17,448 bases of DNA from Rhizobiaceae bacterium. Lineage in GTDB: Bacteria > Pseudomonadota > Alphaproteobacteria > Rhizobiales > Rhizobiaceae. The position numbers were made by a program, and so were the translations under genes. This document shows positions 1,219 through 16,880 of the stretch, one piece after another; position 1 is the first letter of the stretch; the number at the start of each line of letters is the position of its first letter. The notes below the pieces were generated by a model. That model made no database searches, had not been told where the DNA came from, and was given only the letters and a program-made list of their open reading frames with translations. The DNA lies in the NCBI GenBank assembly GCA_014380965.1, contig JACMIV010000045.1, positions 1 through 17,448 of the forward strand. Direction: 5' to 3'.

Positions 1219-1485
1219 ATGAACGAAGCGGACGCCATCGACATCGTCCAGTCGGCGATCTGGACCGTGGTCATCGCCGCAGGACCCGCCGTCGGCGGCG
1301 CAATGCTCGTCGGCATCGTCATCGCACTCTTCCAGGCGCTGACGCAGATCCAGGAGGTGACGCTCACCTTCGTGCCGAAGATCATCGCCATCTTCGTCAT
1401 CATTGCCTTCACGGCATCCTTCACCGGGGCGCAGGTCTACGCCTTCACCCAGGAGAGTTTTGCCCGGATCGAGCACGGCTATTGA
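1219..1485 (+). CDS. fliQ: FliQ, flagellar type III export gate protein
   Basis: An 88-residue inner-membrane protein with two hydrophobic hairpin segments (about residues 14-40 and 50-72) separated by the family's signature loop FQALTQIQEVTLTFVPKIIA (residues 37-56). FliQ assembles with FliP and FliR into the helical core of the flagellar export gate. Length matches the family exactly. The start is 5 bp after the flgD stop with GGAGTAGGGG just upstream. In rhizobial clusters fliQ is normally followed directly by flhA; here a 5-kb segment with a pilus operon separates them. A 20-bp perfect hairpin begins 45 bp after the stop. Confidence 0.96.
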   Translation: MNEADAIDIVQSAIWTVVIAAGPAVGGAMLVGIVIALFQALTQIQEVTLTFVPKIIAIFVIIAFTASFTGAQVYAFTQESFARIEHGY

Positions 1486-1530
1486 GAGACGACGGTTCGC
1501 GATAATGGCCGGCTGAAAGAGCTTTATGTT

Positions 1531-1584
1531 TGAGCGCCGCACCATCGGCCACCGCTTGTGCGGAGGCCGATGGTGCGGCGCTCA
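1531..1584. terminator. Perfect 20-bp stem hairpin after fliQ
   Basis: The left arm 1531-1550 and right arm 1565-1584 are exact reverse complements over 20 bases (arm starts TGAGCGCCGC). The 14-nt centre contains a further CCGC/GCGG stem around a TTGT loop, separated from the main stem by an A/A mismatch, so almost the whole 54 nt folds. There is no long T-run on either side (only TCGCTTTCT on the + side), so it is not a textbook intrinsic terminator. It may still end or protect the flaF-flbT-flgD-fliQ transcript, or be a palindromic repeat element. Symmetry means it would work on either strand. Confidence 0.6.
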
Positions 1585-1585
1585 T

Positions 1586-2112
1586 CGCTTTCTGGTGAAC
1601 CCTTCGTTAATTCTTGCACCAAGGTCGGATGGGCCCGGGGAACGCCGATCTTAACGGTTCAACCTTAAAGCGCCGAGCAGCGGGATCAGGCGATAAACAA
1701 CCGGCCACGGAACTGAAAATCTCCCTGCGTCAGCGGCTTGACGCTGAATTTCATGAAACTTTATTCCTGCCCGCGAGAGTTGCTTTTCGGCGCCTTGAAA
1801 CATGAGTGCGTCGTTCTCAGGTCGATCACACCCCTTCGACATCGTCTGTGGGCCGTCAACGGCTTGTTGTCGCACCTCAGATCAACAAGCAGATCGATAG
1901 ATAATCTTCATCCTTATTAACAGAAACGACCGCTCTCATCGCTCGGAAGGCAGACGTTTAACACTTCGTAAACCAACACGATTAAGTCAACCTAGAATAT
2001 TTTGCCGTCTTGTAGTGGAAGGCCAGCATTTGTTTTCTGGCCTTTAAGAAACAGCCCGCGGCAGCGCTTCATTCGCAGCCAGCCAGCCGGCCAGACGACG
2101 AGGTAGGAAACG
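1586..2112. other. Gene-poor gap with probable leader of the pilus operon
   Basis: About 530 bp without a convincing gene; the short open frames here lack ribosome-binding sites and recognisable sequence. The stretch 1860-2040 is visibly more AT-rich than the flanking genes and is the likely promoter region of the pilus operon. Candidate elements, all weak: TAGAAT at 1993-1998 as a -10-like hexamer without a good -35, and TTAA-N7-TAAA at 1958-1972, one base off the CtrA recognition pattern TTAA-N7-TTAA. A leader hairpin is annotated separately. Confidence 0.4.
2019..2044 (+). promoter_or_regulatory. Leader hairpin upstream of pilin gene
   Basis: AAGGCCAG at 2019-2026 pairs perfectly with CTGGCCTT at 2037-2044 around a T-rich 10-nt loop. 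It lies 68 bp upstream of the pilin start, within the expected 5' untranslated region. It could stabilise the abundant pilin mRNA or attenuate transcription; the sequence does not decide between these. Confidence 0.35.
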
Positions 2113-2595
2113 ATGACACGATCAGGAAGACGATATGCCGCTTTGACCGCGGCGATGCTTTTCTCCGGAACGACCGCTTTTGCCGCCGATACCGACGACA
2201 TGGACGTAACGCTGACGGTGGCAGCGGACTGCGAAGTGACCGCGACGGCAATGGATTTCGGCAACCTGACCGCCGGTGGCCTCTCAGGTGCGACCGCAAC
2301 GTCGACGATCAGCGTAAACTGCGCGACGGGCATCTCCTACCAGGTCAGCCTCGATGCCGGCGATGGCGCCAGCGCGACCACGACCGCCCGCAAGATGACG
2401 CACACGACCGTCTCCAGCAACACGGTGGACTACGGCATCTTCACGGACTCGGGACACACCGCGAACTTCGCGACCGCAACGGCTGCCACCGGCACCGGAT
2501 CCGCCGTCGACACCACCGCCTACGGTCAGATCAGCAGCACCACGGCCGCCGCCGGCGATTACACCGACACCATCACCGTCTCGCTCGTCTACTAA
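2113..2595 (+). CDS. Spore coat U (SCPU) domain pilin, major shaft subunit
   Basis: A 160-residue secreted protein with a Sec signal peptide (MTRSGRRYAALTAAMLFSGT..., cleavage after AFA, about residue 24). The mature chain is one SCPU domain: CEVTATAMDFGNLTAG (40-55), a partner Cys at 70 and a C-terminal GDYTDTITVSLVY strand. These features are typical of subunits of archaic chaperone-usher pili such as CsuA/B. Before Cys40 lies an alternating hydrophobic stretch DMDVTLTVAA (29-38) that fits the N-terminal donor strand used to join neighbouring subunits. The mature protein is very rich in Thr, Ala and Ser, as in major pilins. It is the first gene of the operon and the only single-domain pilin in it, so it is probably the shaft subunit. 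AGGTAGGAAACG precedes the ATG. Confidence 0.88.
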   Translation: MTRSGRRYAALTAAMLFSGTTAFAADTDDMDVTLTVAADCEVTATAMDFGNLTAGGLSGATATSTISVNCATGISYQVSLDAGDGASATTTARKMTHTTVSSNTVDYGIFTDSGHTANFATATAATGTGSAVDTTAYGQISSTTAAAGDYTDTITVSLVY

Positions 2596-2622
2596 GGGCG
2601 CAGCGGAACAGAAAGAAACTCC

Positions 2623-3060
2623 ATGCGTGCGTCACGCTTGTCCGCGCTCCTCGTCGTCATCGGCCTTCTCGGCTCGACAGCGGCGGAAGCATCATCCTTC
2701 CGGGTCGCGCCCGTCGGGCTCAAGATCAATCCCGGCGCGGCCACCTCGTCCATCCGGCTCTGGGGGAGTAGAACCGACCCCGTCAGCATCCAGGTGCGCA
2801 TATTCCGGTCGAAGTTCGTCGACGGCGAGGAATGGCTGGAGCCGACGAGCGACGTCGTCGCAAGTCCGCCGGTGACGAAGCTCGCGCCGGGCGGCGAAAA
2901 TCTCGTGCGGATCGTCCGCGTCTCGAAGAGTCCTGTCACCGAAAAGGAGTCGTACCGTCTCCTGGTGGACGAGCTCCCGAATCCCTCGAAGATCCGGGCA
3001 GGCAGAGTCAATGTCTTGGTCAGGCATTCCATTCCGGTGGTCTTCCTCGGAAGCAACTAG
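2623..3060 (+). CDS. Periplasmic fimbrial chaperone, single (N-terminal) domain only
   Basis: A 145-residue protein with a signal peptide (cleavage after AEA, about residue 23) and a PapD-like N-terminal Ig domain. Visible family features are FRVAPVGLKINPG at the mature N-terminus (Arg27 in the place of the subunit-binding Arg), the ESYRLLVDELP strand (109-119), and the closing G1-like strand NVLVRHSIPVVF (130-141) with a basic residue where chaperones hold the subunit carboxylate. Archaic-system chaperones are usually about 230-250 residues with two Ig domains; this one stops with TAG right after the first. The final 50 bp overlap the usher gene, so the end is not an obvious recent frameshift: the following sequence is the usher signal peptide. 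It is likely to fold and deliver the SCPU subunits. Whether one domain suffices is open. Confidence 0.82.
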   Translation: MRASRLSALLVVIGLLGSTAAEASSFRVAPVGLKINPGAATSSIRLWGSRTDPVSIQVRIFRSKFVDGEEWLEPTSDVVASPPVTKLAPGGENLVRIVRVSKSPVTEKESYRLLVDELPNPSKIRAGRVNVLVRHSIPVVFLGSN

Positions 3061-5509
3061 GTCCCTCGCTTCGGCCTTCGCCTCTTTCCTCATCGCCTGC
3101 GCCGCTCTCGTCGGACCGGCAAGAGGGGAGGCGGTGGAGCCGGAGGGGGCGATCGAGACTTCAGCGGGCGTGAGCGACGTCGTCTCGTACGGCGCGCGCG
3201 ATCTCTATCTGCGCGTCCTCATCAACGACGAGCCGACAGGCTTCGTCGAGGCGTTCCATCAGGATGCCGACGGCGTGCTCACGGCCGATCCCGAACTCTT
3301 GCGTGGCGTCGGAATCCTGCCGGCCGATGCGGCAAGGGACCCTGCCGGCCGTATCGTTCTCGACCGGCTTCCGAACGTCACCTACGTCTTCGACGATCCG
3401 ACGCAGACGATCGCCTTCACCGCGACCGACGCCACCCGGATCGCCCGACGCATCGATACGCAAGGAGGGCGACGCCCCGAGGACGCCGCAGCCGAAACCG
3501 CGGTCGCTGCGCAGTCCGGTTATGGCGCCCTCGTCAACTACAGCTTGTTCGCGTCCACTCCTTCAGGCGAGATGAGTCGCGTCTTCGATTTCGGCGGCGC
3601 GTCCGGTTCCTTCGAGGGGCGGATGTTCTCGCCCTACGGCGTACTTTCGCAAACCTTCGTTGCGAGCACTACGTCCGACGGTCCGTATACCTCGCGGCGA
3701 CTCGACACGAACTGGGCCTATTCCGACCCCGGCTCGCTGCGGAGCTATCAAGTCGGCGACCTCGTCACGGGCGGACTTGCCTGGACGCGTCCGACGCGTC
3801 TTGGCGGCGTCCAAGTGCGCCGAAACTTCACGTTGCGGTCGGACCTCGTGACCATGCCCCTGCCCGAGATATCGGGAAGCGCGGCGGTTCCCTCGACCGT
3901 CGACGTCTATCTGAACGGTGCGCGGCGTTTTTCCAAACAGGTCGGATCCGGGCCGTTCGAGCTGACCAACCTGCCCGCCGTCACCGGGGCAGGGGTGGCG
4001 CGCGTCGTAGTGCGGGACGCTCAGGGGCAGGAAACGGTGTCGGAGACGAGCTTTTTCGCGTCCAGCAAGCTGCTGTCGCCTGGCTTGCTCGACTATTCCG
4101 CCGAACTCGGCTTCGGCCGAAAGTCTTTCGGTCTGAACGACGACGGTTATGACGAGCGGCTGATGGGCTCGGCCTCCCTGCGCTACGGCATCACCGATTG
4201 GTTGACGGCCGAAGCCCATGCCGAAGGCGGCGAGGCTGTCGCCAATGGCGGAGCCGGCGTTCTCATGCCGCTCGGCTCTGTCGGGGTGCTATCGTTCGCA
4301 GCCGCGGGAAGCCGGTCGGAGGCGGGAACGGGTTTTCAACTCAACGCATCGGCCGAGCTCAAGCTCGGCAAGGCCAGCCTCTACGGCCGAAGCCAGCGCA
4401 GCTTCGGCGACTATCAGGACATCGCCGCGATCATCGATGCCAGCCAGGAAGACGACAGTCTCGATCTCTTCCTGCCGCATCGCACCGGGCCTCCGAAGGC
4501 GCTCGATCAGGTCTCCTTGTCCCTGCCTTTGGGGTTCGACCCCGCCACGGTCAATCTGAGTTTCACCCATCTCGAAAGCGCCGACGACGTCTCCAAGAGC
4601 GTCGTCGGCCTTTCCGTCAGCCGTCCCGTCTTCGGGCGCAACACGCTTTACGCATCCGCCTTCAAAGGGATCGGCACCGACCAGCTCGGGTTTCGAGTGG
4701 GATTGACCGTGCCGATCGGTCAGGACATGTCTTCCTCAGTCGGCGCATCGGGCAGCGTCGACAGGACCATCGTCACCGCCAGCGTTTCCAAGCGCGGCAA
4801 GAACGACTTCGGCGACTACACCTGGCGCGTTCGCGACAGCGAAGGCGACATCGCCAACCGGGCGGCGTCGGCGGACTACCGCACGCGGTTCGCGGAGTTC
4901 GGAGTCGATGTCGGTCAAAGCGGGGAACAGTTCCGGGCATCCGGAGGAGTGGACGGTGCGGTTGTGGTCGCGGGCGGAGACGTCTTCTTCAGCCAGCCCA
5001 TCACCGACGCCTTCGCCGTCGTCGATGTCGGGGCGCCCGATATCGCCGTCGAATACGAGAACCGGCCGGCTGGTCGCACGAACGGACGCGGTCGCCTCCT
5101 GCTGCCGCAGCTTCGGGCCTTCGAGAAGAACCGGATCACGATCGATCCGACGGATCTCCCGCTCGACGTCGCCCTGAACAGCACAAGCGCGACCGTCGTT
5201 CCCGCCGACAGGGTGGGCGTCGTCGTCGCCTTCGAGGGTGCGACCGCCCCGGCTGCCGCTCTCGTCACCTTCCGGACTGCGTCTGGAGAGTATCTTCCGC
5301 TCGGCGCCGAGGGGCGCAAGGCGGATGGCTCGGCCGCCTTCGTGATCGGCTACGACGGGCAGGCGTATATCGAGGGTCTGGCGGATCGCAACGCCATCAC
5401 GATCGAGCTTCCTCTCGGCGGAACATGCAACGCCGAGTTCGGCTATGCAGGTCAGGGAGGGAGTCAGGTGGCCATCCCCGATGTCGTCTGCGGCCAGCCG
5501 GCGGGATAG
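3011..5509 (+). CDS. Outer-membrane fimbrial usher (archaic chaperone-usher type)
   Basis: An 832-residue FimD/PapC-family usher, the outer-membrane channel that catalyses subunit polymerisation. Domains in order: a signal peptide within residues 18-39 (preceded by an unusual long polar stretch caused by the overlap with the chaperone gene); an N-terminal chaperone-binding domain (DLYLRVLINDEPTGFVEAF, 64-82, and following); the start of the beta-barrel around GYGALVNYSLF; the plug region near residues 285-350 (STVDVYLNGARRFSKQVGSG); the rest of the barrel; and a C-terminal domain with AFEKNRITIDPTDLPLDVAL and a Cys pair near the end (TCNAEFGYAG...VVCGQ). The ATG at 3011 is the only reasonable start in frame; the 50-bp overlap suggests coupled translation. 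Length is normal for archaic ushers. Confidence 0.93.
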   Translation: MSWSGIPFRWSSSEATRSLASAFASFLIACAALVGPARGEAVEPEGAIETSAGVSDVVSYGARDLYLRVLINDEPTGFVEAFHQDADGVLTADPELLRGVGILPADAARDPAGRIVLDRLPNVTYVFDDPTQTIAFTATDATRIARRIDTQGGRRPEDAAAETAVAAQSGYGALVNYSLFASTPSGEMSRVFDFGGASGSFEGRMFSPYGVLSQTFVASTTSDGPYTSRRLDTNWAYSDPGSLRSYQVGDLVTGGLAWTRPTRLGGVQVRRNFTLRSDLVTMPLPEISGSAAVPSTVDVYLNGARRFSKQVGSGPFELTNLPAVTGAGVARVVVRDAQGQETVSETSFFASSKLLSPGLLDYSAELGFGRKSFGLNDDGYDERLMGSASLRYGITDWLTAEAHAEGGEAVANGGAGVLMPLGSVGVLSFAAAGSRSEAGTGFQLNASAELKLGKASLYGRSQRSFGDYQDIAAIIDASQEDDSLDLFLPHRTGPPKALDQVSLSLPLGFDPATVNLSFTHLESADDVSKSVVGLSVSRPVFGRNTLYASAFKGIGTDQLGFRVGLTVPIGQDMSSSVGASGSVDRTIVTASVSKRGKNDFGDYTWRVRDSEGDIANRAASADYRTRFAEFGVDVGQSGEQFRASGGVDGAVVVAGGDVFFSQPITDAFAVVDVGAPDIAVEYENRPAGRTNGRGRLLLPQLRAFEKNRITIDPTDLPLDVALNSTSATVVPADRVGVVVAFEGATAPAAALVTFRTASGEYLPLGAEGRKADGSAAFVIGYDGQAYIEGLADRNAITIELPLGGTCNAEFGYAGQGGSQVAIPDVVCGQPAG

Positions 5510-5518
5510 GATATTGCG

Positions 5519-6469
5519 ATGAGGCTGCTGGTGCTGCTGATGATCGCGTGGATCTCCTTGCCGACCGCCGGGCATGCCGCGTCCTGCAGCGTCACGATCG
5601 ACGATCTCGACTTCGGCACCGTCGACAGCCTCGGCAGCCTTGCGAGCGATACGGTCGGCCAGGCGATGATCGACTGCAGTTCCATCACACCCGGCACCAG
5701 CGTCGTGACGGTGTGCCTTCACATCGGCCACGGAACGGCGGGATCGGGAAATGGTGTCCGATATCTCGCCGCCGGAAGCCTGAACCTGGCGTTTCAACTC
5801 TACAGCGACAGCGGCCGAAGCGTCGTCCTCGGCAGCCTCGACCAACCAACGATCGGGCGGCCGCGAAAGGTCACGATCGCCGTTTCCGGTGATGCCGCCT
5901 CGGCGACCGTCCAGGTCTACGGGCGTGTGCTCGGGGCACAATCGACGGCCACGTCCGGTCGCTACGCCAGCGTCTTCTCGGGCGCCGATGCGTCCGTCAC
6001 GAACGCCGAAGGGGACGTGCAGGATTGCGAATCGGCGACGGACGCGGCGTCCTCGTCCTCCTTCACCGTGTCGGCCACGGTCCCCGACAATTGCCTCATC
6101 TCAGTCAGCGACATCGAGTTCGGGCAGCATGCCGGGGTACGTCAGAACATCGACCGAAACGGCAATATCGACGTGACCTGCACGCCCGGAACCGAATATG
6201 TCGTCACCCTCAACGGCGGCCTTAGCAACAGCAACGATCCGGAACGCCGGATCCTGCGCTCTGGAGCGGATGAAGCCCTCTACGGGCTCTACAGGGATGC
6301 AGCGCGGACGCTGCCCTGGGGCAACTCGCTCGACACGCGCCTTCCCGGCACCGGCGAGGGGAGCCTCCAGTCCGTTACGGTCTACGGAAGAGTCCCGGCG
6401 CAGACCCTACGTCCGGGCACCTACAGCGACACCGTCAATGTCACCATCACCTACGACGCCCTGGATTAA
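5519..6469 (+). CDS. Two-domain SCPU protein, probable pilus tip subunit
   Basis: A 316-residue secreted protein with a signal peptide (cleavage after HAA or AGHA, about residue 20-21) and two tandem SCPU domains. Domain 1 spans about 23-170 with Cys23, Cys53, Cys66 and Cys170 ([15 protein letters not shown]). Domain 2 spans about 190-314 with Cys192 and Cys221 ([15 protein letters not shown] ... [17 protein letters not shown]). Domain 1 begins with its Cys almost directly at the mature N-terminus, so it has no donor strand to offer another subunit, as expected for a tip. The linker [14 protein letters not shown] resembles the shaft pilin's donor segment. By analogy with CsuE, the tip adhesin encoded last in csu operons, this is probably the tip. 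It lies 9 bp after the usher and is the last gene of the operon. Confidence 0.85.
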
Positions 6470-6560
6470 GCTACGCCGACGCAGACACGGGGAAGCAAGG
6501 GTTACCAGAACCTTTCCAGCCCGGCTCCAGCCAGAGGCTGCAGAAAGGCGGAAGGAGGAT

Positions 6561-6590
6561 CGGGCGCTCTTCTAGCGCCCGTTCTGCCTC
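6561..6590 (+). terminator. Putative terminator after the pilus operon
   Basis: CGGGCGCT (6561-6568) pairs with AGCGCCCG (6574-6581) around the 5-nt loop CTTCT. It is followed by TTCTGCCTCTTG, pyrimidine-rich but not an uninterrupted T-run. It lies 92 bp after the tip gene and 68 bp before flhA, a sensible place to end the pilus transcript. Efficiency is uncertain. Confidence 0.5.
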
Positions 6591-6648
6591 TTGCCGCGGA
6601 CGCCGGACGCGTTTCGCGGCGGGCATGATGCCCTTCGAGGAACCGCCG

Positions 6649-8748
6649 ATGTCGCTCGTCGAACCGCTCCGGATCAGCTCTGCCACGGCCCTCAAGCCGA
6701 AAAGCCGACGCGACGTCGGCTTCGCCTTCGGCATCATCTTCATCATGGCGGTGCTGTTCGTACCGATCCCCGCCTTCCTTATCGACTTCGGACTGGTGAT
6801 CTCGATCGCGCTGTCGATCCTCATCCTGATGGTCGCCCTCTGGATCGAAAAGCCGCTCGACTTCTCGTCCTTCCCGACCCTTCTCCTCATCGTCACCATG
6901 CTGCGCCTGTCGCTGAACATCGCGACGACGCGCGTGATCCTGTCCCACGGCGACGAAGGTCACAACGCGGCCGGCTACGTCATCGGCGGCTTCTCGCAAT
7001 TCGTCATGGGCGGCGACTTCGTCATCGGCATCGTCGTCTTCGTCATCCTCATCACCGTGAACTTCCTCGTCATCACCAAGGGCGCGACGCGTATCGCCGA
7101 GGTCGGCGCGCGCTTCACCCTCGACGCCATCCCAGGCAAGCAGATGGCGATCGACGCCGATCTCTCCGCCGGCCTCATCGACGAGCGGCAGGCCCAGCTC
7201 CGCCGCCGCGAACTGGAGGAGGAAAGCTCCTTCTTCGGCTCGATGGACGGCGCCTCGAAATTCGTGCGTGGCGACGCGATCGCCGGCCTCATCATCACCG
7301 CCGTCAACATCTTCGGTGGCATCATCATCGGCATCACCCGCCACGGCATGGATGCCGGAGAGGCCGCCGACATCTACACCAAGCTTTCGGTCGGCGACGG
7401 TCTCGTCACCCAGATCCCCGCCCTCATAGTCTCGCTTGCCGCCGGCCTCCTCGTCTCCAAGGGCGGCACCCGCGGCGCCGTCGAAATGGGGATCATGACG
7501 CAGCTCGGACACTATCCGCGCGCCATGATGGTCTCCTCGGTGATGATGGGGACGCTCGCTCTTCTGCCGGGGCTGCCGTTCCTGCCCTTCGCTGTCGCCA
7601 GCCTCGGCCTCAGCCTCGTCGCCTACACGGTCCCGCGCAAGCGCGCCGCCGCGGAAGCGGCCATCGAGGTCGAGAAGAAGCAGATCGAGCAGCAGGAGGT
7701 CGAGGCCGAACGGCAGTCGGTGAAGGAGAGCCTTCGGATCGTCGAGGTCGAACTCGTCCTCGGCAAGCAGATGGCCGCACATCTCGCCTTCTCGCGCGAC
7801 GAGCTCGCCAACCGCGTCCAGAAGATGCGCCGCCGATTCGCCTCGCGCTACGGTTTCGTGGTGCCCGAGATCAAACTCTCCGACGATCTCTCGGTCGAGC
7901 CGAAATCCTACGAGATCAAGGTCCACGGCACGACGGTCGCGACGCAGCCGCTGAGGCTCGGCGACCTCCTCATCGTGCTCGGCGATTCGCCGGTGCCGGA
8001 CATTCCGCACGATCTGACGCGCGAGCCGGCCTTCGGGCTGAAAGCCGCCTGGATATCGGACACGTTCGGCTCCGCGGCCCGAAGGGCCGGGTTCGAGCCC
8101 GTCGACACGCTCTCGATCGTGCTGACGCATCTTTCCGAGGTCATCCGCAACAACCTCGCCCATCTCCTCTCCTACAAGGACACGCGCGCGCTGCTCGACC
8201 GGCTCGAGCCCGAATACAAGCGGCTGATCGACGAGATCGTGCCGGCGCACATGTCCTTCTCCGGGCTCCAGGCGGTACTGAAGCTGCTGCTCGCCGAGCG
8301 CGTGTCGATCCGCAACATCACGCTCATCCTCGAGGCCATCGCCGAGATCGCGCCGCACGTGCGCCGGTCGGAGAAGATCGTCGAGCATGTGCGAACCCGC
8401 ATGGCGCAGCAGATCTGCGGCGATCTCTTGCACAAGGGGCAGCTCGGCGTCCTGAGGCTCGGCAACCGCTGGGACCTCGCCTTCCATCAGGCGCTGAAGC
8501 GCGACGCCAAGGGCGACGTGATCGAGTTCGACATCGATCCGAGGCTCGTCGAGCAGTTCGCGACGGAGGCGACGAAGATGATCCGCGAGAAGACCGACCA
8601 GGGCGAGAACTTCGTCCTCGTCGCTTCGCCGGACGCGCGTCCCTACGTCCGGATGATGATCGAGCGCATCTTCGTGAACCTGCCGGTGCTCTCGCATCTC
8701 GAGATCGCCCGCGGCGTCGATATCAAGTCGCTCGGCTCGATCGCATGA
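6649..8748 (+). CDS. flhA: FlhA, flagellar type III export gate component
   Basis: A 699-residue inner-membrane protein of the FHIPEP family. FlhA forms the nonameric export gate and its cytosolic domain docks chaperone-substrate complexes. The N-terminal half carries multiple membrane segments (from [20 protein letters not shown] onwards, through about residue 325). The diagnostic FHIPEP signature [20 protein letters not shown] lies near residues 148-167 and [20 protein letters not shown] precedes it. The C-terminal half is the cytoplasmic domain. An in-frame ATG at 6625 would add eight residues; 6649 is preferred because AGGAA lies six bases upstream and 6625 has a poor site. The stop overlaps the fliR start as ATGA. 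Normally adjacent to fliQ, it is here separated from it by the pilus operon. Confidence 0.96.
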
Positions 8749-11387: not shown

Positions 11388-11526
11388 CCCCGACAGACCG
11401 CGAAAGCAAGACGCGCCGCATTTAGCTTCGCGTAATATCGATGCGTTAATCATGGACGACAGACCGCCGGACGGAGAGCCGGTTCCCGCGCCCTCCCGCT
11501 CCGTCCCGTCACGACAGGCCACGGCG
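11388..11526. other. Spacer before the DUF1217 gene
   Basis: 139 bp separating the FliL-like gene from the preferred DUF1217 start. It contains an AT-rich stretch (TTTAGCTTCGCGTAATATCG, 11421-11440) that may hold a separate promoter; no clear -35/-10 pair is seen. An upstream in-frame ATG at 11452 would use part of this region as a Pro-rich N-terminal extension. Confidence 0.3.
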
Positions 11527-13719
11527 ATGCTCTCTACCCTACTCAACTACCGCACCTACACGACGAACATGACGAAGACGCTGGACCGCATCCAGCAGTC
11601 GACCTCCGTCGCCGGCGACACGAAGTATTATAAAGAGACGATCGGGACGATCAAAACGGTCGACGCGTTTCTCGATGACCGACGGCTCTACACCTACGCC
11701 CTCAAGGCCTACGGGCTGGAGGACCAGGCGTCCTCGCAGGGCTTCATCCGAAAGGTGATCGAGAGCGACCTCACCGATACCGCATCCTTCGCCAATCGTC
11801 TCAACGACCAGCGGTTCAGGCAGTTCGCGCAGGCCTTCAACTTCGATGCCGCGACCGTCGAGACGCCGACGGAGCCGCAGAGCGCGCGCCAGAAGCAGGC
11901 ATTGACCGAGGCATATTCGGAATACCGCGTTCGCCAGGGATCGACGCTCGCCGCCAAGACGACCTATTTCCAGTCAGAGATCAAAAGCATCACGACCGTC
12001 GACGCCTTCCTTGGCAACACCGTCCTTTTCGACGTGGCGATGAGCTCGATCGGCATGGACCCGGCTTTGACCTCGAAGACCTACATCCGCGACATTTTCC
12101 TCGGGAAGGTCTCGGACGACACCTCCAGCGTCAGCGACGACAAATTCTTCGCGCTTGCCGACACGTTCAACTTCCTGGCCGACGGAACCCTCGCGCAAGG
12201 AACTTTGGCGCTCGACGCCGCGGCCGTCGGCGATCTCGTCCACCGCTACAACGTGCGCAAGGACAACCTCTCCAGTCCGCAGTCGGCCACGCACGAGTCG
12301 CAGTACTACGCCGAGAGGATCGCCGTCACCGACGACGCCTTCGACCTCGTGATGGATCCGCGCCTCTTCGACTACATCCGCAAGGCTTATGTCCTGCCGG
12401 ACGACGTCACTCCGGCCTTGCTCTACAACGTCATCACGGCCGCTCCGGCAGATGTCGACGACGTCATCACCGCAGCCGAGCTTCCCCAAAACGGCAAGTA
12501 CCCCGACTACGAGGTGAGGCTGGCCGAACTGCGCACCGCCTTCGACTTCGCGAAGGACGGATCGGCCAAGCCCGGCGAGGGGCAGACTGCGACCGCGCGC
12601 GAGGCGCTGATCGACCGCTTCTACGAAAACTACACGTTCGACACCGACGCAAAGGCTGCGGTCGCCACGTCGCGTTTCGAGGATGCCCTCTACGACCGGA
12701 TCAAATCCGTCTCGACGCTTCTCGCCCGATATCAGGACTTCGACAGGGACGCCATCGAGTACGTGCTCCTGGCCTTCGACATCGACCCCGCGACGGCGAG
12801 CCTCACCAAGGTCCGGCGCGTCCTCCAGAGCGACGTGTCCGATCCTAACAGCTACGTCAACAAGCTCGGCGATCCCCGCTACGAGAAGCTCGCAGCCGCC
12901 TTCAATTTCGACGAGAACGGCAAGATTCGTGCAGAGCGGGTCGTCCAGTCGGCTTCGAACCAGACCCAGACCGGAACGCGCTACCGCGAAAGCTTCGGCA
13001 AGGATCTTTCGACGGTGAAGAAGGAACTCATCACGACCGAGACCCGCGCCTATCTCGAAGCCGTCGCCGAGATCACGACACTCGACGCGTTCGTCGAGAG
13101 CCCGAAGGTCACGCAGTACGCCTTGACCGCATATGGGCTTGCCGACGAAGACTTGTCGCAGGACGATCTGCGCAAGCTCCTCACCAGCGATCTCGCCGAT
13201 CGCGAGAGCTATGCGAACTCCTTCGCCGACGACCGCTACACCGATTTCGTCGCCGCGTTCAACTTCCAGCCCAACGGCACCGTGAAGCTGGCAGATGCAG
13301 GGGTTCAGAGTGGATACGACCTCCTTACCACGGAGAGTCTCTTCCTCCTCACGACGCTGGAGCAGCAGGCCGGCGAAACGAGCGAGGGGGCTCGCCTCGC
13401 CCTCTATTTCCTGCGCAAGGCGCCGGAGACCAAGACCACGAGCGGGATCCTCGCCGACAGGGCGCTTCTCGAAGTGGTTCGCACGACGCTGGGTCTGCCG
13501 GCGTCGCTGTCGCAGCTCGATCTCGACAAGCAGATATCGATCATCGAGAAGCGCCTCGACATCGCGGACTTCAAGGATCCAAAGAAGCTCGACAAGTTCA
13601 TCGCACGCTTCGCCGGCCTCTACGACATCGCCAATGCAGACCCTGCGACGACATCGCCGGTCCTCGGTATCTTCGGCAACTCCGGCTCATCGAGCGGCGG
13701 ACTGCTTGCCCTTCTGTAG
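11527..13719 (+). CDS. DUF1217 repeat protein of the flagellar cluster
   Basis: A 730-residue protein made of about six related modules of 75-100 residues, the pattern of DUF1217 proteins found in rhizobial flagellar loci. Approximate modules: 33-107, 146-217, 259-342, 383-462, 505-581 and 604-702. Most contain an opening xYYxxxIxxIxTVDAFL, a central YALKAYGL-like helix, SDLxDxxSYAN, and a closing AAFNF motif (QAFNFD 102-107, DTFNFL 212-217, TAFDFA 337-342, AAFNFD 457-462, AAFNFQ 576-581). The last module (ALYFLRKAPET ... IARFAGLYDIANAD) is the most conserved in character. There is no signal peptide or membrane span. An upstream ATG at 11452 would add 25 Pro-rich residues; the start at 11527 matches the family's usual MxxTxxxYxxYxxxM start. 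Function is not established; the context suggests flagellum assembly or secretion by the flagellar system. Confidence 0.82.
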   Translation: MLSTLLNYRTYTTNMTKTLDRIQQSTSVAGDTKYYKETIGTIKTVDAFLDDRRLYTYALKAYGLEDQASSQGFIRKVIESDLTDTASFANRLNDQRFRQFAQAFNFDAATVETPTEPQSARQKQALTEAYSEYRVRQGSTLAAKTTYFQSEIKSITTVDAFLGNTVLFDVAMSSIGMDPALTSKTYIRDIFLGKVSDDTSSVSDDKFFALADTFNFLADGTLAQGTLALDAAAVGDLVHRYNVRKDNLSSPQSATHESQYYAERIAVTDDAFDLVMDPRLFDYIRKAYVLPDDVTPALLYNVITAAPADVDDVITAAELPQNGKYPDYEVRLAELRTAFDFAKDGSAKPGEGQTATAREALIDRFYENYTFDTDAKAAVATSRFEDALYDRIKSVSTLLARYQDFDRDAIEYVLLAFDIDPATASLTKVRRVLQSDVSDPNSYVNKLGDPRYEKLAAAFNFDENGKIRAERVVQSASNQTQTGTRYRESFGKDLSTVKKELITTETRAYLEAVAEITTLDAFVESPKVTQYALTAYGLADEDLSQDDLRKLLTSDLADRESYANSFADDRYTDFVAAFNFQPNGTVKLADAGVQSGYDLLTTESLFLLTTLEQQAGETSEGARLALYFLRKAPETKTTSGILADRALLEVVRTTLGLPASLSQLDLDKQISIIEKRLDIADFKDPKKLDKFIARFAGLYDIANADPATTSPVLGIFGNSGSSSGGLLALL

Positions 13720-15340: not shown

Positions 15341-16036
15341 ATGGCCCGACTGATGCTGAACGAGGCTCTGCCGCCCGAGCAGTCGACCTTCGATCCGGAG
15401 GCCGCGATCCAGAGGATTTGCGACAGCTACGGGTTCAATTTCTACGCCGTCTGCAGCCTCGGTGCGGCCGACATCGTCGACTCCCGGTCGGTCATTTTGT
15501 CCAATTTCGTGGCCGAGGGCATCGAGTTCCTCGACGAGAGCAGATGGTGGGACAAGTTCGAGTCCTTTTCGGACTCGCTCCGCTCCGGACGAACGGTCCA
15601 CTGGGTCCTCAATCCGCCGAACCTCAAGTCCTCGCCGGAGCGCCTTCAGCGCTTCGCCGACCTCATCGCGGATTATCCCGTCTCAGAGTGCCTGACTGTG
15701 CCTCTCCACTGTGGCACTCGTCTCGGCGCGGCCTATCTGATGGGGGAAGCACTGAGCTTTTCGTGTCACGAGCTCGATGTCCTCCAACTCTCGATGCTGG
15801 GTCTCTTCGAACGCCTATGCGAACTCCATCCTGCCCGCGACATGCGCGTGACGCCGCGCGAAATCGAATGCCTTGCCTGGACCTCCCGCGGCAATACGAG
15901 CCAGCAGGTGGCCGGCATCCTGTCGATCTCGGAACACACGGTGGTGCGCCATCTCGTCAGCGCCACGAAGAAGCTGTCGGCCGCCAATCGCAGTCAGGCC
16001 GTTGCCAAGGCCATCCGGCTCGGTTTCATGGAGTGA
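15341..16036 (+). CDS. LuxR-family regulator, VisN/VjbR-like (first of a pair)
   Basis: A 231-residue transcription factor. The N-terminal domain (about 15-160) has the layout of a LuxR autoinducer-binding domain (NFYAVCSLG; RWWDKFESF; LTVPLHCGTRLGAAYLMG). The C-terminal LuxR helix-turn-helix occupies about 168-229 (TPREIECLAW ... ISEHTVVRHLVSATKKL). Of the residues that usually hold acyl-homoserine lactone, a Trp is present near 69-70, but the Tyr position reads Phe and the Asp-Pro pair is missing. It is therefore probably not a normal AHL receptor. A strong ribosome-binding site, AAGGAGG, lies 5 bp before the ATG. It sits beside flagellar genes and in tandem with a second LuxR gene, as visN-visR do in Sinorhizobium; Brucella VjbR, which controls flagellar genes, is another relative to consider. 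Confidence 0.8.
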   Translation: MARLMLNEALPPEQSTFDPEAAIQRICDSYGFNFYAVCSLGAADIVDSRSVILSNFVAEGIEFLDESRWWDKFESFSDSLRSGRTVHWVLNPPNLKSSPERLQRFADLIADYPVSECLTVPLHCGTRLGAAYLMGEALSFSCHELDVLQLSMLGLFERLCELHPARDMRVTPREIECLAWTSRGNTSQQVAGILSISEHTVVRHLVSATKKLSAANRSQAVAKAIRLGFME

Positions 16037-16157
16037 GGGCAGGCCATGACGCTGCGACGATGACGACGGAACTTCGCCGTGCCAAACCGCGCCTGACGGC
16101 AGCCGCCCGTTGCGCCCGCTCCCTCGCACAGCCACACAAACGCTAAGGAGGGGCGCG

Positions 16158-16880
16158 ATGACGTACCATTTTCAGAACGCCATCGACACCGGCGGCATCG
16201 AAACGATCGGAAGCGTCGACGAGGCCAAGATCCGGCTCGATGCCGTGCGTCAGGCTTTCGCCTACGAAGACTTCTCCGTGCTCGACATCCTGTATATCGA
16301 CGGCAAACCGAGCGCGCGCGTGCTTCTCGACAGCGCGACACCCGAGCGGCCGCTGCATCTCAAGACGTTCGACCGCGACGAGAGGCGCGTCCTCTTTTCG
16401 CTCATCGCGCAATCCTCGGCCCCGGTGCGATGGCGCTCGCGGCGCTCGCCTCCGGTTGCCCCGATCGTCGCCTCGCCGCACCTCTTTCGGGAGCAGCAGG
16501 AGACCTATGAGAGCCCTGGAGGGCTCTACGTGCCCGTCCATAGCGGGCTCAACCGGGCGGGCGTCGTCATCTTCTTCGGCGACGGCAAGCCCGATCTCTG
16601 TCTCGGAGAAATTGGTTCGCTCCGGCTGTTCTGCGTATGCTGGTTCGCGCGGCTGTCGCAACTCGGGCTCGGCCACTCCACCCCCGTGACGCTGACGCGG
16701 CGCGAACTCGAATGTCTGCAGCTCGCCGCCACCGGACTGACGGCGGAGGGCATCGCCGAAGCCCTCGACCTCTCCCGTCACACCGTGACGCACCATCTCG
16801 TGTCCGCGACCTCCAAGCTCGGCGCCAGCAACCGTACGCACGCCATCGCCGAAGCCGTCCGCAGGGGGCTCCTGCGTTAG
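16158..16880 (+). CDS. LuxR-family regulator, VisR-like candidate (second of the pair)
   Basis: A 240-residue protein with a C-terminal LuxR helix-turn-helix at about 178-239 (LTRRELECLQLA ... LSRHTVTHHLVSATSKL). The N-terminal ~170 residues are not a recognisable AHL-binding domain, though GGLYVPVHSGLNRAGVVIFFG (121-141) resembles the last strands of such sensor folds. The DNA-binding half matches that of the preceding regulator at 30 of 61 aligned positions by my count, so the two are paralogues with diverged sensors. A longer frame starts at a TTG (16110), but the ATG at 16158 follows AAGGAGG by six bases. The pair probably forms one operon (121-bp spacer) and may work as a heterodimer, as VisN/VisR do; that is inference. 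Confidence 0.78.
   Translation: MTYHFQNAIDTGGIETIGSVDEAKIRLDAVRQAFAYEDFSVLDILYIDGKPSARVLLDSATPERPLHLKTFDRDERRVLFSLIAQSSAPVRWRSRRSPPVAPIVASPHLFREQQETYESPGGLYVPVHSGLNRAGVVIFFGDGKPDLCLGEIGSLRLFCVCWFARLSQLGLGHSTPVTLTRRELECLQLAATGLTAEGIAEALDLSRHTVTHHLVSATSKLGASNRTHAIAEAVRRGLLR

Follow-up and report, generated by a model that had tools for sequence, protein, structure and literature searches.

The pilus operon between the flagellar genes fliQ and flhA of this Rhizobiaceae bacterium is best explained, with a probability of about three in four, as a single insertion of a variant of the archaic chaperone-usher pili, whose predicted assembly would use a chaperone consisting of its first domain (D1) alone. 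This reading is drawn from sequence comparison. The window, which is the whole stretch of DNA analysed (17,448 nucleotides), is an entire contig (G000:C69) of a source genome that is 66% complete. Its genes run in the order flaF, flbT, flgD, fliQ, pilin, chaperone, usher, two-SCPU subunit, flhA, and fliR, and all four pilus genes are open frames on the forward strand (Table 1).

Table 1. Coordinates of the pilus operon, its flanks, and nearby features in the window
Feature	Position	Strand	Evidence or remark
fliQ, left flank	1219..1485	+	PF01313, E 8.4e-25
Hairpin 3' of fliQ	1531..1584	+	z -9.2; not equalled in any of 200 shuffles
Leader of the pilus operon	1590..2112	+	about 53% G+C (surroundings 60-68%); expected promoter region
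Major pilin, single SCPU domain	2113..2595	+	PF05229, E 3.8e-23; last-strand Tyr is the C-terminus
Single-domain chaperone, 145 aa, D1 without D2	2623..3060	+	PapD_N, E 3e-13
Codon of Arg112, equivalent of CsuC Arg89, the D1 half of the carboxylate anchor	2956..2958	+	CsuC alignment; Arg in 87 of 87
Retained donor strand G1 (residues 129-137)	3007..3033	+	
Codon of residue 140, Val in the window	3040..3042	+	Phe in all 76 two-domain chaperones of the main set
Usher; displayed ATG 50 bp within the chaperone gene	3011..5509	+	PF00577, E 1.1e-32; PF13953 (PapC_C), E 8.4e-08
Tip-type subunit, two SCPU domains	5519..6469	+	PF05229, E 3.6e-50, two stretches
17-bp conserved element 5' of flhA, right insertion boundary	6514..6530	+	6 of 6 Aureimonas genomes
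Weak inverted repeat before flhA	6561..6581	+	z -1.8; 10 of 200 shuffles as good
flhA, right flank	6625..8748	+	PF00771, E 7.2e-235
Two adjacent LuxR-type regulators, weakly VisN/VisR-like	15341-16880		GerE domains

The operon carries the SCPU-type subunits and the outer-membrane usher of an archaic chaperone-usher pilus. PF05229 matches the pilin once and the tip subunit twice, and PF00577 and PF13953 identify the usher, whose FimD match covers its C-terminal part. The C-terminus of the tip subunit lies 4 residues beyond its last-strand Tyr. The chaperone has a D1 of the CsuC type with the donor strand and the Arg89 equivalent, but the second domain (D2) of a tandem-Ig chaperone, with its part of the carboxylate anchor, was found neither in the gene, nor in the operon, nor at the other one-domain loci. 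Thus, the operon is a variant and not an ordinary archaic chaperone-usher member. The original prediction of a complete archaic operon at this site therefore stands in part: Pfam supports the SCPU pilin, chaperone, usher, and two-SCPU subunit between fliQ and flhA on one strand, and the archaic assignment holds for the subunits, the usher, and D1. However, the operon is not complete in the usual sense, as its chaperone is half the usual size, lacks the C-terminal domain, and leaves no room for one before the usher. The first possible ATG of the usher falls inside the 3' end of the chaperone gene (3011-3060), and the resulting MSWSG start is common to the window, G002, and G005, probably as a consequence of the conserved donor strand encoded in the other frame.

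The chaperone frame ends immediately past the donor strand and matches PapD_N alone. In a predicted structure, which covers the chaperone alone as a single chain, D1 retains the CsuC fold and the donor strand. The main set for comparison contains 87 systems with both a chaperone and an usher: the window, 79 loci, and 8 systems from the genome search, minus L140, which was left out of the 88 because its contig carries no chaperone. In 11 of these systems the chaperone continues for 0-3 residues after D1 and in 76 for 87-103, with none between, and two added one-domain systems have 1 residue each, for a total of 13. The conserved start of the usher lies 94-179 bp past the chaperone stop at the 11 one-domain loci measured, which leaves no room for a D2 of about 270 bp. 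No D2 match was found in any frame of the 13 one-domain loci. A genome search for D2 covered 16 genomes, among them the window's own, which is 66% complete. Ten one-domain and three chaperone-less genomes gave no convincing match, the single partial hit (E 0.007, in G024) being at chance level, and the three two-domain genomes used as positive controls all matched at E 1.1e-33 or better. On these results, a separately encoded D2 was rejected for the loci and genomes searched.

The one-domain systems are a single clade, and on the usher phylogeny D2 was lost once. In a tree of 88 usher rows, the 11 one-domain rows form one side of a branch with an SH-aLRT of 96, and in a chosen subset of 38 rows, 25 of them two-domain, the 13 one-domain rows share one branch (99/96). 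One-domain holders occur in Aureimonas, Jiella, Flavimaribacter, Rhizobium, Agrobacterium, Brucella endophytica (G079, P0040), and the GTDB genus of A. populi, in which 4 of 21 genomes are of this type. A protein search with five one-domain chaperone queries returned 1996 matches. Among the 120 listed, which include the window and two rows from one genome and come from a query that favours the one-domain form, 92 end 1-4 residues past the motif and 28 carry a second domain. An assembly error or frameshift behind the short chaperone was rejected because unrelated assemblies share the short form, at 13 independent loci in one clade and in these 92 homologues.

Searches at wider taxonomic scope place the one-domain form among predominantly longer chaperones. 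In the family search, 32 of 297 genomes have the chaperone, 7 of them one-domain; among genomes with a match, the window is the sole one-domain case in the class search (385 genomes), and the window and a Jiella genome (G025) are the only ones in the order search (397 genomes). The remaining family, class, and order loci have 92-102 residues past D1, except L219. Among the best matches of a plasmid search with the chaperone (147 records), H6, H7, and H8 are all two-domain. L219 lies outside the clade and has 15 residues beyond D1 with a D2-like start and the Phe kept; it is possibly broken or cut.

Several features of the chaperone and its partners differ between the two classes. Residue 140, directly after the donor strand, is never Phe in the 11 one-domain systems of the main set (Arg in five, Val in two, and Thr, Ile, His, and Ser in one each). 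Across the 92 one-domain homologues it is Tyr in 28, Arg in 25, Val in 12, His in 11, Ser and Thr in 5 each, Phe in 4, and Ile and Leu in 1 each; it is Arg in P0046 and His in P0065. L206, a two-domain chaperone outside the main set, has Ser here. A common replacement anchor at residue 140 is not supported, given this variety and the Val of the window. Proline occupies position 38 in 74 of 76 two-domain chaperones, whereas 10 of 11 one-domain ones have Gly. Within the two-domain class, the equivalent of CsuC Tyr196 is Tyr in 74 of 76 and that of Arg174 is Arg or Lys in all 76. Usher columns also differ between the classes, several of them strongly; these columns are spread out and do not suggest an obvious compensating domain.

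The C-termini of the subunits differ as well. In two-domain systems, 72 of 75 pilins and 65 of 67 tips stop precisely at the last-strand residue, and the remainder run 1-2 residues on; these counts leave out 1 pilin and 9 tips of the 76 systems that the search missed. The corresponding one-domain counts are 8 of 13 pilins and 3 of 13 tips. In the 11 main-set one-domain systems, 6 pilins and 1 tip are unextended. The extension measures 4-11 residues in the other five pilins, 1 residue in six tips, and 4-6 residues in four tips; neither of the two added systems has a subunit extension. Fisher tests on the 11 systems, which ignore relatedness and therefore carry no weight here, give p values of 6e-10 for tips and 6e-4 for pilins. 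The three systems without extension in either subunit form the first branch of the one-domain clade, which suggests that D2 was lost first and the C-termini were freed later. Because all of these coupled changes fall on one loss of D2, they represent a correlation on a single branch and not independent replicates.

The location of the operon is derived. Of six Aureimonas genomes, the window's own, A. glaciei (G002), and Aureimonas sp. SA4125 (G005) carry the operon at the fliQ-flhA junction, while in the other three (G001, G003, and G004) fliQ adjoins flhA and no such chaperone was found anywhere in the genome. A tree of concatenated flagellar proteins from 10 loci unites the three filled sites in one clade (100/99), and one insertion therefore suffices. 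Across the genomes compared, the pilus operon at this place is a clade-specific insertion. These comparisons bear out the earlier proposals that fliQ and flhA are usually adjacent and that the operon was inserted into the motility locus: fliQ immediately precedes flhA in relatives that lack the insert, and the filled sites fall in one clade, so the order with the operon is not ancestral.

The fliQ-flhA junction also holds unrelated genes in other genomes. Among 30 flhA loci compared, 23 have fliQ no more than 1.5 kb away, with gaps of 31 to 907 bp. The other seven comprise the three filled sites, different stretches in G013 (2.2 kb), G022 (8.7 kb), and G026 (1.9 kb), and G027, where fliQ was not found within the 16 kb examined. 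The G013 stretch includes an ECF sigma factor and a YCII protein and that of G022 includes EPSP-synthase-family, histidinol dehydrogenase, and Maf genes, while the one frame scanned in G026 had no Pfam match. In A. populi (G301), the pilus operon lies elsewhere in the genome and the junction (L187, 2443-4259) contains a 1.8-kb insert with DUF1428, glyoxalase-like, and HxlR regulator genes. Thus, the junction looks permissive, and a flagellar link is not supported.

The boundaries of the insertion are marked by features that are also present at empty sites. An empty site consists of fliQ, a G+C-rich hairpin, the element TTCCAGCCCGGCTCAAG, and flhA; where the site is filled, the operon separates the fliQ-side hairpin from this 17-bp element. 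Strong counterparts of the fliQ-side hairpin, a putative terminator-like structure, occupy this place at another filled site (L044, z -4.4) and at an empty one (L046, z -4.8). Hairpins had been proposed on both sides of the operon; the left one is strong, but the right one, before flhA, is weak. The 17-bp element occurs once per genome, 5' of flhA, with at most 1 mismatch in all six Aureimonas genomes, and was not found in A. populi. A reversed-pattern control also gave one match in 3 of 6 genomes, so the position of the element is informative and its count is not. Within the window it has 1 match at up to 3 mismatches versus 0.32 expected, and it is not a repeated motif. Between positions 1200 and 6800, a sigma-70 consensus scan returned 0 promoter matches, and a terminator scan returned 3 sites, of which one belongs to the fliQ-side hairpin, where chance alone predicts 3.4; neither count is informative.

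In CsuC, the C-terminal carboxylate of the subunit is anchored by Arg89 in D1 and by Tyr196 and Arg174 in D2, which supplies two of the three residues (PMC4654587). Under the proposed mechanism, a four-gene archaic-type operon would have inserted at the fliQ-flhA junction in a single event, before the three Aureimonas species diverged, with a chaperone from a conserved lineage that had lost D2. By donating its G1 strand, D1 alone would cap each subunit, which it would then hand over to the usher. Of the two-domain clamp on the carboxylate, only the lone Arg of D1 would be left, and with the clamp gone the subunit C-termini would be free to lengthen. Arg112 is still invariant, which suggests that some carboxylate anchoring may remain. 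The stronger proposition, that the one-domain lineage assembles pili with neither an inter-domain cleft nor a two-domain carboxylate clamp, carries even odds on the comparative evidence. The flagellar site would be a gap between transcription units that tolerates insertion, with no regulatory partnership implied.

A truncated chaperone could also be the relic of a decaying operon, as the domain it has lost is otherwise strongly conserved. This explanation is highly improbable: the truncation is common to the 13 systems on one branch and to most of the listed homologues, and all four genes are open. Furthermore, dN/dS values of 0.26-0.41 among four Aureimonas-type loci indicate that the one-domain chaperone is under purifying selection, and between the window and G002 it is better conserved than the other three proteins (65% identity, compared with 57% for the usher, 51% for the tip, and 40% for the pilin). 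It is unlikely, though less so, that D1 works with a substitute for D2, provided by self-dimerization, an unrelated partner, or an usher domain. The share of the anchor that D2 contributes in CsuC and the usher columns that differ strongly between the classes would fit a substitute; however, the four-gene operon has no extra gene, and the ten one-domain genomes have no D2 homologue beyond the partial match in G024, with the window's own genome being incomplete.

The third alternative concerns location rather than the chaperone. The original prediction held that the operon had been recruited into flagellar control and could couple swimming with attachment through a nearby PilZ gene and a LuxR pair. 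Its presence on the same strand and at the same site in three species is consistent with this, yet recruitment is quite unlikely. The operon sits between a hairpin and the flhA element that flank empty sites too, A. populi has its operon elsewhere and a different insert at the junction, and among 32 other chaperone-bearing genomes, 24 of which have flhA, only G002 and G005 have both genes adjacent (2 of 24, with contig breaks possible). The putative PilZ gene matches below threshold (13.3 bits, cut-off 22.5; E 0.11). Genuine GerE domains are present in the LuxR pair, but against the VisN/VisR models the pair scores 38-62 bits, short of the NCBIfam curated cut-offs of 250 and 300 bits. The sequence argues against co-transcription or a shared regulator with the flagellar genes, and the swimming-adhesion link is left unsupported. 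Rfam and tRNA scans of the window gave no matches.

The one-domain system can be compared with characterized and predicted relatives. The Csu pilus has CsuC as chaperone, CsuA/B as pilin, and CsuE as tip, together with adaptor subunits CsuA and CsuB named in PMC9452303; the operon of the window has four genes, and its chaperone without D2 has no Tyr196/Arg174 anchor. Two-domain rhizobial SCPU operons, such as those of Rhizobium skierniewicense, Nitratireductor, and Sinorhizobium meliloti, mostly share the pilin-chaperone-usher-tip order of the window (58 of 76 loci) and have ushers about 44-52% identical to its own. Unlike the window, their chaperones have a D2 of about 90-100 residues with conserved anchors, and their subunit C-termini are almost always unextended. 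The classical PapD, FimC, and Caf1M chaperones likewise have two domains. One-domain proteins are already named in databases as 'fimbrial biogenesis chaperone' and in one case 'Pili assembly chaperone N-...', so the sequences are known. However, the one-domain pattern appears not to have been described in the searchable literature: no paper on a one-domain chaperone-usher chaperone, or on Aureimonas with 'chaperone-usher', was found in the open-licence literature, where other wording could escape the search.

A one-domain chaperone contradicts the expected two-domain plan, and its conserved lineage is a natural deletion experiment that makes the role of D2 testable. If the D1-only pathway is correct, D2 and the proposed two-domain reorientation would be dispensable for subunit holding, release, and secretion, and subunit C-termini would become free to evolve. 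The one-domain chaperone is also a small, simple target for structural work. The location carries less weight than the chaperone; it suggests that the fliQ-flhA junction accepts foreign or moved genes, for which a flagellar role need not be assumed.

Two other genes of the window lie downstream. A 755-aa protein with four DUF1217 stretches is encoded in the flagellar cluster (11452-13719), and its counterparts at other Aureimonas loci are 44-53% identical. A gene for a polyhydroxyalkanoate granule-type protein (PF09650) is located on the reverse strand at the contig end (16922-17302).
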